Positions 35,921-38,179 of a stretch of 64,000 nucleotides of DNA are shown here, one piece after another. The stretch is from assembly GCF_000348985.1 (NCBI RefSeq), contig NC_035934.1, positions 1 through 64,000 of the forward strand. Reading direction: 5' to 3'. A program made the translations under genes and the position numbers. The notes under the pieces were generated by a model. It was not told the DNA's origin. It saw only the letters and a program-made list of their open reading frames with translations, and searched no databases. The stretch is from Huiozyma naganishii CBS 8797. Taxonomy: Eukaryota; Ascomycota; Saccharomycetes; Saccharomycetales; Saccharomycetaceae. The stretch's first letter is position 1. Every line of letters starts with the position of its first letter.

Positions 35921-38179
35921 ATGTCGTTGAGGAGTTACATCGGGGCACTACGTTCCCGGTGGCCACACACTTGTGCCACAGAACCAATACTGCGGATTGT
36001 ACTAGGTAACGAGTCCTGTGACTTCGATTCGTTTGCCAGTACACTCACGTACGCTTACACACGGGGGCTAGTCCCCGTGCTACAGTTGCCAGACTCCCGC
36101 GATATCCTTCTACGAAGGGACATTGCATGGTGGCTGTCCCAGCGGGGGATCCCCGCCACGCAATTGTTCACTCTACAGGATGTGAAAGAATGGCGGACCA
36201 CGCAGGGGCCCCATGGGGCCGTGCACGCCGTACTAGTGGACCACAACAAGTTGACCGGGCCTGCAGCCGCTCTTGTCGACGAAGTCACCGGTGTAGTGGA
36301 CCACCACGCGGACGAAGGGCTGTACTTGGGTGCAGAACCGCGAGTCGTGCAACCGTGTGCCAGCTGTTCTACACTCGTGATGGACCTGTGTGGCAGAAGC
36401 GAAGACACACCACCACCAGAGGATATCACTGAACTGTGCCTCTCCGCACTGCTGCTGGACTCCTCGTGTCTCGCGAAACGGATGACACCGCTGGACGCGT
36501 CTGTCGTGAACAGGTTCTACAAGGGGGCCACGGACACCGCGCTGCTGTACAGGACGCTCCAGGGCCAGAAACGCGATCTCTCGGGGCTCACCGCGGGCGA
36601 CGTCCTCCGGGCGGACTACAAGCAGTTCTCCTTCGCGCTGGGCCCGGTGGGGGTCGCGGTGGGGGTCGCCTCCGTCCCGCGGTCGCTGCGGTGGGCGGCC
36701 TCTGCGGTGGGCTGGGCAGAGTTCTGCCGGGCAGCGCAGGGGGCCGTTGCGGACCGCGGGCTCGCGCTGCTGCTGGTGATGTTCCACTCCGGCGGGCGGC
36801 GGCAGCTGGCGGTCGTAACAGGGTCCGCCGGCGCGGCGCTAGCAGACACGGTCGTCGCGGCGGTTGCGGGGGACCTCGCGCTGGCGGAGATCACTGCGGA
36901 CGGCGCGGGAATGGAGGGCGGTTCCGCGGAGCCGGGGGACGGGTTCCGCGGAAGCGCCGTCCGCTGCTTCGAGCAGGGTAACGCGGTGGTCTCGAGGAAA
37001 CTGTTCACGCCGATGCTTTCTCGGTTCTTCAGCTCTTTGAGTCACCAACGAGTGGCTGCTACCGGTCCAAGCAGAGCAACCCCCCACAGGATGAAGAGTG
37101 TTAGTGTCGGTGTTATTGGTGCTGGTGTCGTCGGGTCCGCGCTTTTGGACCAATTGGTCGCGTTGAGCCTGCCAGACGTGCAATTGGAGCTTGTGCTCGT
37201 GGCTGAGTCCGGGAAGGCTCTGCTGTCGCAAGATTATAAGCCGTTGCAAAACGGGGAGTCCTTCCAGTGGAGAGACGCTTTGGCGAAATGTGGTGAGTCC
37301 ACTGGGTTAGAGATGCCACAGGTGATTGAGTTCTTGAAGAATTCTCCTCACCGGGCGATCCTGGTGGATAACACCTCGAGTGCGTACGTTGCTGGGTTCT
37401 ACAACGATTTCGTCAGTGCTGGGATCTCCATCGCGACTCCCAACAAGAAGGCCTTCTCATCGGATATTAAAGTCTGGGATCAATTGTTTGCTCCGTCTAC
37501 CGATGAGAGTTACCCTCGTGGGTTGGTCTACCATGAGGCCACGGTAGGTGCTGGTTTGCCCATTATCTCTTTTCTAAGAGAAATCATTGCCACGGGGGAT
37601 CAAGTCGAGAAGATCGAGGGGATCTTCTCGGGTACTCTGTCGTACATCTTCAACGAGTTTTCTAGCTCTGATGCTAAATTCTCCGAGATCGTCGCTGTCG
37701 CTAAATCCCTCGGGTACACTGAACCTGACCCAAGAGATGACTTGAACGGGTTGGATGTCGCTAGGAAGGTCACTATCGTCGCTAGAATTGCAGGGTTGCC
37801 AGTGGAAAACCCACAGGCTTTCCCAGTCCAATCGTTGATCCCTAAACCACTGGAGTCTGTGTCCTCCGCACAGGAGTTCTTGGAGAAATTGCCTCAGTAC
37901 GATGGTGACCTAGAGGCATTGAAACAGGAGGCCGCGAGTGAGGGGAAAGTGTTGCGGTTCATCGGATCTGTCGATTTGACCACGAAGACTGCATCCGTGG
38001 GGATCCAGAAGTACGACACTGCTCACCCGTTCGCGTCCCTCAAAGGCTCCGACAATGTCATCTCCATCAAGACGAAGAGGTACACTAACCCGGTGGTCAT
38101 CCAAGGTGCTGGTGCAGGTGCTGCCGTTACGGCCGCCGGTGTTCTAGGTGACGCCATCAAGGCAGCTCAGAGATTGTAG
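35921..38179 (+). CDS. PPX1-HOM6: In-frame fusion: exopolyphosphatase (PPX1) joined to homoserine dehydrogenase (HOM6)
   Basis: A single open frame of 752 codons. Residues 1 to about 375 are exopolyphosphatase, a DHH-family enzyme that removes phosphate from polyphosphate chain ends. All its metal-binding motifs are intact: GNESCDFDS (Asp34, Asp36), VDHN (107-109), VDHH (127-129) and LLLDSS (Asp180). S. cerevisiae Ppx1 has 397 residues. Residues 391-752 are complete homoserine dehydrogenase starting at its own Met (37091). Between them lie about 15 residues of Ser/Arg/His-rich linker with no stop. The PPX1 part, especially 36580-36990, is far richer in GC than the HOM6 part. PPX1 sits at the expected YHR201C position next to RPN10. 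Either a true bifunctional protein is made, or two overlapping transcripts use the frame, with HOM6 starting internally. Confidence 0.85.
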   Translation: MSLRSYIGALRSRWPHTCATEPILRIVLGNESCDFDSFASTLTYAYTRGLVPVLQLPDSRDILLRRDIAWWLSQRGIPATQLFTLQDVKEWRTTQGPHGAVHAVLVDHNKLTGPAAALVDEVTGVVDHHADEGLYLGAEPRVVQPCASCSTLVMDLCGRSEDTPPPEDITELCLSALLLDSSCLAKRMTPLDASVVNRFYKGATDTALLYRTLQGQKRDLSGLTAGDVLRADYKQFSFALGPVGVAVGVASVPRSLRWAASAVGWAEFCRAAQGAVADRGLALLLVMFHSGGRRQLAVVTGSAGAALADTVVAAVAGDLALAEITADGAGMEGGSAEPGDGFRGSAVRCFEQGNAVVSRKLFTPMLSRFFSSLSHQRVAATGPSRATPHRMKSVSVGVIGAGVVGSALLDQLVALSLPDVQLELVLVAESGKALLSQDYKPLQNGESFQWRDALAKCGESTGLEMPQVIEFLKNSPHRAILVDNTSSAYVAGFYNDFVSAGISIATPNKKAFSSDIKVWDQLFAPSTDESYPRGLVYHEATVGAGLPIISFLREIIATGDQVEKIEGIFSGTLSYIFNEFSSSDAKFSEIVAVAKSLGYTEPDPRDDLNGLDVARKVTIVARIAGLPVENPQAFPVQSLIPKPLESVSSAQEFLEKLPQYDGDLEALKQEAASEGKVLRFIGSVDLTTKTASVGIQKYDTAHPFASLKGSDNVISIKTKRYTNPVVIQGAGAGAAVTAAGVLGDAIKAAQRL
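37038..37044. promoter_or_regulatory. Gcn4 site TGAGTCA at the PPX1/HOM6 junction
   Basis: A perfect TGAGTCA lies 47-53 bases before the HOM6 ATG, inside the linker-coding stretch. HOM6 is a general amino-acid-control gene in S. cerevisiae. The site suggests that HOM6 transcription can start from within the PPX1 frame, although this is closer to the ATG than usual for Gcn4 sites. Confidence 0.5.
37091..38179 (+). CDS. HOM6: Homoserine dehydrogenase unit inside the fused frame (possible separate product)
   Basis: 362 codons from an internal ATG (S. cerevisiae Hom6: 359). The enzyme reduces aspartate semialdehyde to homoserine with NAD(P)H, the branch point to threonine and methionine. The Rossmann glycine motif VGVIGAGVVGS starts at the seventh residue from this Met. 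Then come DNTSSAYVAGFY, ATPNKKAFSS, YHEATVGAGLPIISFLREI, EGIFSGTLSYIFNEFS, GYTEPDPRDDLNGLDVARK and the C-terminus IQGAGAGAAVTAAGVLGDAIKAAQRL (in parts). These are nearly invariant in yeast Hom6. A Gcn4 site lies 47 bases before this ATG. Since Hom6 is a cytosolic dimer made in quantity, independent initiation here is a real alternative to the fusion. Confidence 0.8.
   Translation: MKSVSVGVIGAGVVGSALLDQLVALSLPDVQLELVLVAESGKALLSQDYKPLQNGESFQWRDALAKCGESTGLEMPQVIEFLKNSPHRAILVDNTSSAYVAGFYNDFVSAGISIATPNKKAFSSDIKVWDQLFAPSTDESYPRGLVYHEATVGAGLPIISFLREIIATGDQVEKIEGIFSGTLSYIFNEFSSSDAKFSEIVAVAKSLGYTEPDPRDDLNGLDVARKVTIVARIAGLPVENPQAFPVQSLIPKPLESVSSAQEFLEKLPQYDGDLEALKQEAASEGKVLRFIGSVDLTTKTASVGIQKYDTAHPFASLKGSDNVISIKTKRYTNPVVIQGAGAGAAVTAAGVLGDAIKAAQRL

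Follow-up and report, generated by a model that had tools for sequence, protein, structure and literature searches.

In Saccharomyces cerevisiae the cytosolic exopolyphosphatase Ppx1 (2qb6) and the homoserine dehydrogenase (HSDH) Hom6 (1ebf/1q7g) are separate proteins, solved as chains of 397 and 359 residues, respectively. Joining of HSDH to another enzyme is known from bacteria, where proteins of the ThrA/MetL type carry an aspartokinase at its N-terminus. Joining of adjacent genes is known from fungi, where, according to the main text of a fusion/fission survey, 365 adjacent-gene events were set aside as likely nonsense or frameshift (Durrens et al., 2008, PMC2557144). Here we describe a locus of Huiozyma naganishii CBS 8797 in which PPX1 and HOM6 share one reading frame. 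The window, i.e., the whole stretch of DNA that was analysed, comprises 64,000 nucleotides at the start of contig 13 of this strain, which was previously named Kazachstania naganishii (NCBI taxonomy). We consider it fairly probable that the locus is a lineage-specific fusion of neighbouring genes, in which HOM6 would be translated mainly within a Ppx1-Hom6 protein from the PPX1 promoter.

Results

Positions 35921-38179 of the window (plus strand) form a single open reading frame (ORF) of 752 codons plus stop, which begins with the ATG at 35921, ends at 38177-38179 and has no internal stops. Searching the whole genome (10,845,821 bases in 13 contigs) with the 752-residue protein gave one matching place, and no second copy of PPX1 or HOM6. 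Four Pfam domains were identified in the protein, each exceeding its curated cut-off. The PPX1 unit (residues 1-373; 35921-37039), a DHH/DHHA2 exopolyphosphatase similar to S. cerevisiae Ppx1, includes DHH (residues 26-176; 35996-36448; 32.8 bits against a cut-off of 28.1) and DHHA2 (residues 212-368; 36554-37024; 52.3 against 27). The HOM6 unit (residues 391-752; 37091-38179) includes NAD_binding_3 (residues 400-524; 37118-37492; 46.9 bits) and the catalytic domain Homoserine_dh (residues 547-746; 37559-38158; 171.9 bits). Between the units lies a linker of 17 codons (residues 374-390, SHQRVAATGPSRATPHR; 37040-37090) without an in-frame stop. A sequence-only reading of this DNA had proposed such a 752-codon frame, with no stop between the two enzymes and with both at full length and intact in their catalytic motifs, and the Pfam domains and the alignments to relatives agree with it; the linker, which it put at about 15 codons, is indeed stop-free but slightly longer. 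Two full-length units in one frame are what is expected of an adjacent-gene fusion whose partners are separate in relatives. The frame is confirmed as more than a product of chance, as it holds two full-length enzymes and codon usage changes around their junction.

Aligning the PPX1 half with six relatives revealed 35 columns that are invariant in all seven sequences, among them D34, D36, D107-H108-N109, D127-H128-H129, D180, R359-K360 and P364. We take the D/H motifs to be the metal site and the SRK motif (residues 358-360; 36992-37000) to be the C-terminal motif of Ppx1-type exopolyphosphatases; S. cerevisiae Ppx1 has N at the position of H108. An AlphaFold2 model based on this alignment had a mean predicted local distance difference test value (pLDDT) of 78.7 and a predicted template modelling (TM) score of 0.78, and its top structural match was S. 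cerevisiae Ppx1 (2qb6; TM score 0.78 over 412 alignment columns). The SRK motif lies near the end of the Ppx1 fold and the relatives stop shortly after it, 5-13 residues past the conserved proline of the P364 column, so that the end of the PPX1 unit is predicted at residue 369-377. In the model the final helix reaches residue 381, and confidence falls below 50 at residues 382-390. By its domains and conserved motifs, the PPX1 half looks complete as a Ppx1-type exopolyphosphatase, and its activity is predicted. When the entire fusion was aligned with the two families together, the Ppx1 C-termini were misplaced onto Hom6, and the Ppx1-only alignment was used instead. The DHHA2 part of the unit (36521-37000) is extremely rich in G and C, with a G+C content (GC) of up to 0.81 and a third-position GC of up to 0.95 in 40-codon blocks, where the ceiling for the 2-kb blocks of the window is 0.593.

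The HOM6 half begins at its native start, Met391 (37091, with A at -3), aligns end to end with the solved S. cerevisiae Hom6 (1q7g, residues 4-359) and is 71% identical to Hom6 of K. africana (KAFR_0B06920). Domains and full-length alignment both qualify it as a homoserine dehydrogenase, whose activity within the fusion is predicted. The protein is not a bifunctional aspartokinase-homoserine dehydrogenase, as a Pfam scan of the 752 residues gave no match to AA_kinase (PF00696). The NCBIfam model PRK09436 scored 329.9 bits, below its cut-off of 726 bits, and its HSDH part aligns from residue 391. This, together with the combination of aspartokinase and HSDH domains in 23 of the 27 matches of one database search, suggests that HSDH tolerates an N-terminal enzyme at this very place. 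Given the intact motifs and the failure of the genome search to find a further copy of HOM6, both halves probably retain their enzyme activity. Both enzymes appear to depend on the fused locus, given its single place in the genome.

To get clues on how HOM6 may be expressed, we compared the DNA upstream of its ATG with that of 51 other starts (30 in the window, including the start of the fused ORF itself, and 21 at other loci). The 200 bp upstream of the HOM6 ATG have a GC of 0.65, the highest of the 52 starts. The most A/T-rich 30 bp within them have a GC of 0.43, where all other starts reach 0.40 or less, and the longest A/T run is 3 over both 200 and 300 bp, where the 51 other starts have runs of at least 6. 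Widening the stretch to 300 bp leaves the contrast unchanged. No TATA box was found in this region. Even by the standard of coding DNA it is rich in G and C: of 435 ATGs lying in frame within other coding sequences (those of the fused ORF excluded), only one has an upstream GC as high, and 13 have no upstream A/T run longer than 3. Between 35700 and 37200 the only A/T runs of at least 6 are at 35857-35863 and 35865-35871, in the divergent region between MGM101 and PPX1. Hexamers of the terminator efficiency type are absent from the 150 bp past the PPX1 unit, a stretch that enters the HOM6 coding sequence, and at least one is found at 39 of 49 control 3′ ends. With nothing promoter-like 5′ of the HOM6 ATG and no hexamer of the terminator type ahead of HOM6, one transcript and one protein are the simplest reading. 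Another ATG, out of frame and 19 bp before that of PPX1, begins a 35-codon frame (35902-36009) that overlaps the PPX1 start; should the transcript start upstream of 35902, this frame could make translation of the fusion less efficient.

Codon usage was scored by the codon adaptation index (CAI) against a small high-expression set, the two copies of EF-1alpha and RPS4. The PPX1 unit has a CAI of 0.121, lower than any of the window's 28 background genes, whose minimum is 0.135, and the HOM6 unit has a CAI of 0.293, within the range of BAT1-, HOM3-, HOM2-, ILV1-, TRP5- and THR4-like genes (0.243-0.366). Their mean codon scores differ by 0.76, compared with at most 0.40 between the halves of 23 control genes. 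With all codons, the change point falls after codon 368 (near-best 345-395; t 6.56 vs. a permuted 99th percentile of 3.64), and with separate scoring of G/C- and A/T-ending codons it falls after codon 378 (near-best 330-524; t 5.22 vs. 3.70). Judging from these scores, HOM6 is the unit with the history of stronger codon selection. The jump at the junction implies either that the fusion is young or that separate expression continued, and we regard the fusion as probably of recent date rather than as a bifunctional enzyme that has been tuned.

Several observations weigh against a HOM6 that is expressed mainly from the PPX1 promoter. Over 60 and 100 bp the upstream GC of HOM6 ranks only third of 52, and A/T runs as short as those of HOM6 are found at 10 other starts over 60 bp and at one over 100 bp. 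A TATA box is missing at 32 of the 51 control starts too, terminator hexamers are likewise missing at 10 of the 49 control 3′ ends, and the longest A/T run (5) and minimum 30-bp GC (0.40) past the PPX1 unit are equalled by the most extreme control. Such unequal codon adaptation would be odd if both halves had long been translated together at one level. In addition, the HOM6 ATG with its A at -3 remains in place, and so does a perfect Gcn4-type site, TGAGTCA (37038-37044), which lies inside the fused frame 53 bp upstream of that ATG and whose codons also encode residues of the junction.

It is therefore conceivable that the frame is open but mostly passive, with HOM6 transcribed on its own from a promoter that lies within the PPX1 unit, in its 3′ part, Gcn4 acting at 37038-37044 and the fusion protein being minor. 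The codon change point suggests a HOM6 that was long expressed separately and more strongly, and the chance of a TGAGTCA within 53 bp is about 0.4% (about 4% within 500 bp), as judged post hoc. Nine amino-acid genes, named by family, length and recall, are assumed by us to be Gcn4-controlled. Five of them, the BAT1-, TRP5-, HOM3-, ARG5,6- and HIS4-like genes, have the motif, always at -149 to -188, and it was not found upstream of the other four (ILV1-, THR4-, HOM2- and THR1-like). Six further amino-acid genes (CYS4-, CysK-, two PRO1- and two CHA1-like) lack it, which makes 5 of 15 overall, the split into nine and six being our own choice. As for controls, it was found at 3 of 28 window genes, one of which shares the BAT1 site, and at none of five translation genes and none of five other GHMP-kinase genes. 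Passages of a review report that Gcn4 of S. cerevisiae is often bound within coding regions and is able to initiate internal transcripts at a distance of about 100 bp (PMC9604717), and passages of another paper describe the threonine pathway as Gcn4-induced, naming HOM3 and HOM2 and not singling out HOM6 (PMC4117449).

Yet the site lies about 100-135 bp nearer to its ATG than the five others do, leaving scant room for a core promoter, and the 300 bp upstream are GC-rich with no A/T run longer than 3. Nor is TGAGTCA enriched as such: 867 sites occur in the 10.85 Mb of the genome (one per 12.5 kb), fewer than the 945 of the reversed control pattern, and 5 occur in the window, where shuffles predict 12.55. 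On balance we hold such an internal promoter to be unlikely as the main source of HOM6. A mixed outcome seems to us distinctly improbable as well: the locus would yield Hom6 in two versions, one joined to Ppx1 and made constitutively under the PPX1 promoter, the other free and induced by starvation through a Gcn4-driven start in the linker. If true, it would mean that a neighbouring phosphate gene captured basal expression while amino-acid control survived inside a coding sequence.

A further point against the fusion concerns the assembly. Compared with the window copy, the RPS4 copy on contig 2 has three one-base indels (about 1374060-1374265; about 5060-5265 in locus L029), and the two copies also differ by six substitutions, all at third codon positions. 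The indels suggest consensus error or a pseudogene of very recent origin, and they make a wrong base near the PPX1-HOM6 junction possible: the PPX1 stop could be concealed by a base dropped or inserted near 37018-37038 or by loss of a spacer, and a TGA in the +1 frame (37038-37040) indeed lies where the stop of a separate PPX1 is expected. Against such an error, the fused locus is unique in the genome, unlike the near-identical RPS4 repeat, the longest homopolymer in 37016-37045 is three bases, and all eight of the neighbouring window proteins that were scanned match Pfam families within one frame. Moreover, even with a single base misread, HOM6 would start about 50 bp after PPX1 and would have no promoter-like DNA ahead of it, so the promoter argument would survive such an error. 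We thus give an artefact little credence.

The coding sequences of the two RPS4 copies (window, 32265-33050; contig 2, 4680-5700 in locus L029) are nearly identical. An intron-like insert (GTATGT...TACTAAC...CAG) interrupts the contig-2 copy near its start and is missing from the window copy, as it might be after intron loss or conversion from cDNA. Near an end of contig 1 (6055-6981, locus L018), a PALP-family match with two in-frame TAA codons is probably a subtelomeric pseudogene.

The surroundings of the fused gene offer an origin for its two parts. In S. cerevisiae, PPX1 (YHR201C) and HOM6 (YJR139C) presumably sit on the two halves of a duplicated block. By Pfam family and order, the window track has RIX1-, AIM46-, RPN10-, MGM101-, YHR202W-, RPS4-, MNL1- and BAT-type genes near the fusion, the S. 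cerevisiae names being partly our assumption. We take this track to mix a chromosome VIII series (RIX1, AIM46, RPN10-like, YHR202W-like, RPS4, MNL1-like and BAT-type) with MGM101 and HOM6 of chromosome X. MGM101 (35079-35801, minus strand, PF06420) is divergent from the fused gene, and the 119 bp between them (35802-35920), which contain A/T runs, are the presumed promoter of the fused gene. On the other side a VWA protein (38240-39010, minus strand, PF13519), presumably RPN10, is convergent with it, with 60 bp between the stops.

On the sister track, on contig 2, the order is IML1, a 1659-aa ORF, a 355-aa ORF, a NUDIX ORF, PMT, RPS4 and a branched-chain-type aminotransferase. The 1659-aa ORF had no Pfam match, and by position and length we take it to be HIR3; the Pfam scans of this ORF and of PMT (minus strand, contig 2) used proteins lacking the first codon. 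HOM6 is absent from this track, as only 71 bp lie between the stops of IML1 (1363235) and of the gene that follows (1363307), and no MGM101-sized ORF (at least 120 codons) was found between PMT and the RPS4 copy. The two gene orders indicate that HOM6 and MGM101 would have been kept on the window track and the HIR3-to-PMT block on the other, bringing PPX1 and HOM6 together. Gene loss after the duplication is thus likely to have made the two tandem neighbours. Hom6 stands alone in K. africana, N. castellii, N. dairenensis and M. humilis, among the best 120 of 7122 matches and with a length filter that hides fusions. The search with Ppx1 gave six distant proteins, and a stand-alone PPX1 of close yeast relatives was not recovered among them.

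Discussion

The evidence above is best accommodated by a fusion of PPX1 and HOM6 that arose in several steps. After the yeast whole-genome duplication the window track would have kept HOM6 while the sister track lost it, and the window track would in turn have lost the genes that once separated HOM6 from PPX1. Erosion of the remaining spacer, most simply by one in-frame deletion, may then have taken the PPX1 stop and terminator and the HOM6 core promoter. The position of the TGAGTCA site permits a model, not a result, in which one deletion of about 100-135 bp removed the HOM6 core promoter together with the PPX1 stop and joined the frames. HOM6 would now be chiefly the C-terminal half of a Ppx1-Hom6 protein under the PPX1 promoter. 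The sequence-only reading had left a choice between a real joined protein and a passive product of stop-codon loss. The best support is for a joined gene whose product is, at least in part, a single protein, and a passive origin fits the evidence best, because post-duplication loss explains the adjacency and codon adaptation shifts sharply at the junction.

The same reading had also raised a link between phosphate stores and amino-acid synthesis, for which nothing was found beyond the covalent join. A fusion selected for coupling polyphosphate turnover to homoserine synthesis, through channelling, co-regulation or co-localisation, would agree with the conserved motifs that both halves keep and with the natural fusion of HSDH to another enzyme. 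However, the codon adaptation of the halves has not been equalised, the separate Hom6 of K. africana and the other yeasts speaks against it within the limits of that search, and to our knowledge the two reactions share no intermediate. In addition, no other fusion of the pair was found among the other 26 of the 27 database matches; that search was of limited sensitivity, as it scored only the 7990 candidates sharing most words and missed the Hom6 relatives P0072 and P0149 (430 and 438 aa). We find selection for coupling very hard to credit.

The PPX1-HOM6 gene appears to be a fusion with a traceable origin, in which reciprocal loss made new neighbours, the spacer between them eroded, and a single-copy biosynthetic gene apparently survived by read-through. 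If confirmed, it would show that a fusion of functionally unrelated genes can become fixed with no benefit from the joined activities, and it would call for caution with methods that infer functional links from fused genes.

Within the open-licence PMC papers, none was found that pairs PPX1 with HOM6 or, by title, concerns a PPX1-HOM6 fusion, and the locus-tag stem KNAG0M is not mentioned. Papers there that join at least two of the terms exopolyphosphatase, homoserine dehydrogenase and naganishii are, by title, bacterial studies, and the chromosome-evolution paper PMC3141009 does not mention K. naganishii. The main text of the fungal survey (PMC2557144) has no occurrence of HOM6, YJR139 or YHR201, and compared with its adjacent-gene events, as that text describes them, the present case differs in that the PPX1/HOM6 adjacency itself appears to come from post-duplication loss. 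The families of both halves, fusion of adjacent genes and fusion of HSDH with aspartokinase are all known, and the new element would be the PPX1-HOM6 domain pair, which was not found elsewhere.

Compared with S. cerevisiae Ppx1, with which it shares the DHH and DHHA2 fold and the conserved motifs, the PPX1 unit has about 26% identity and runs without a stop into a second enzyme. Compared with Hom6 of S. cerevisiae and K. africana, to which it is alike over the full length, the HOM6 unit follows an exopolyphosphatase in frame and has no promoter-like DNA of its own. The bacterial ThrA/MetL type is similar in that it carries a second enzyme N-terminal to HSDH, fused at the equivalent point. There, however, the partner is aspartokinase, a neighbour in the pathway, whereas here it is an unrelated exopolyphosphatase.

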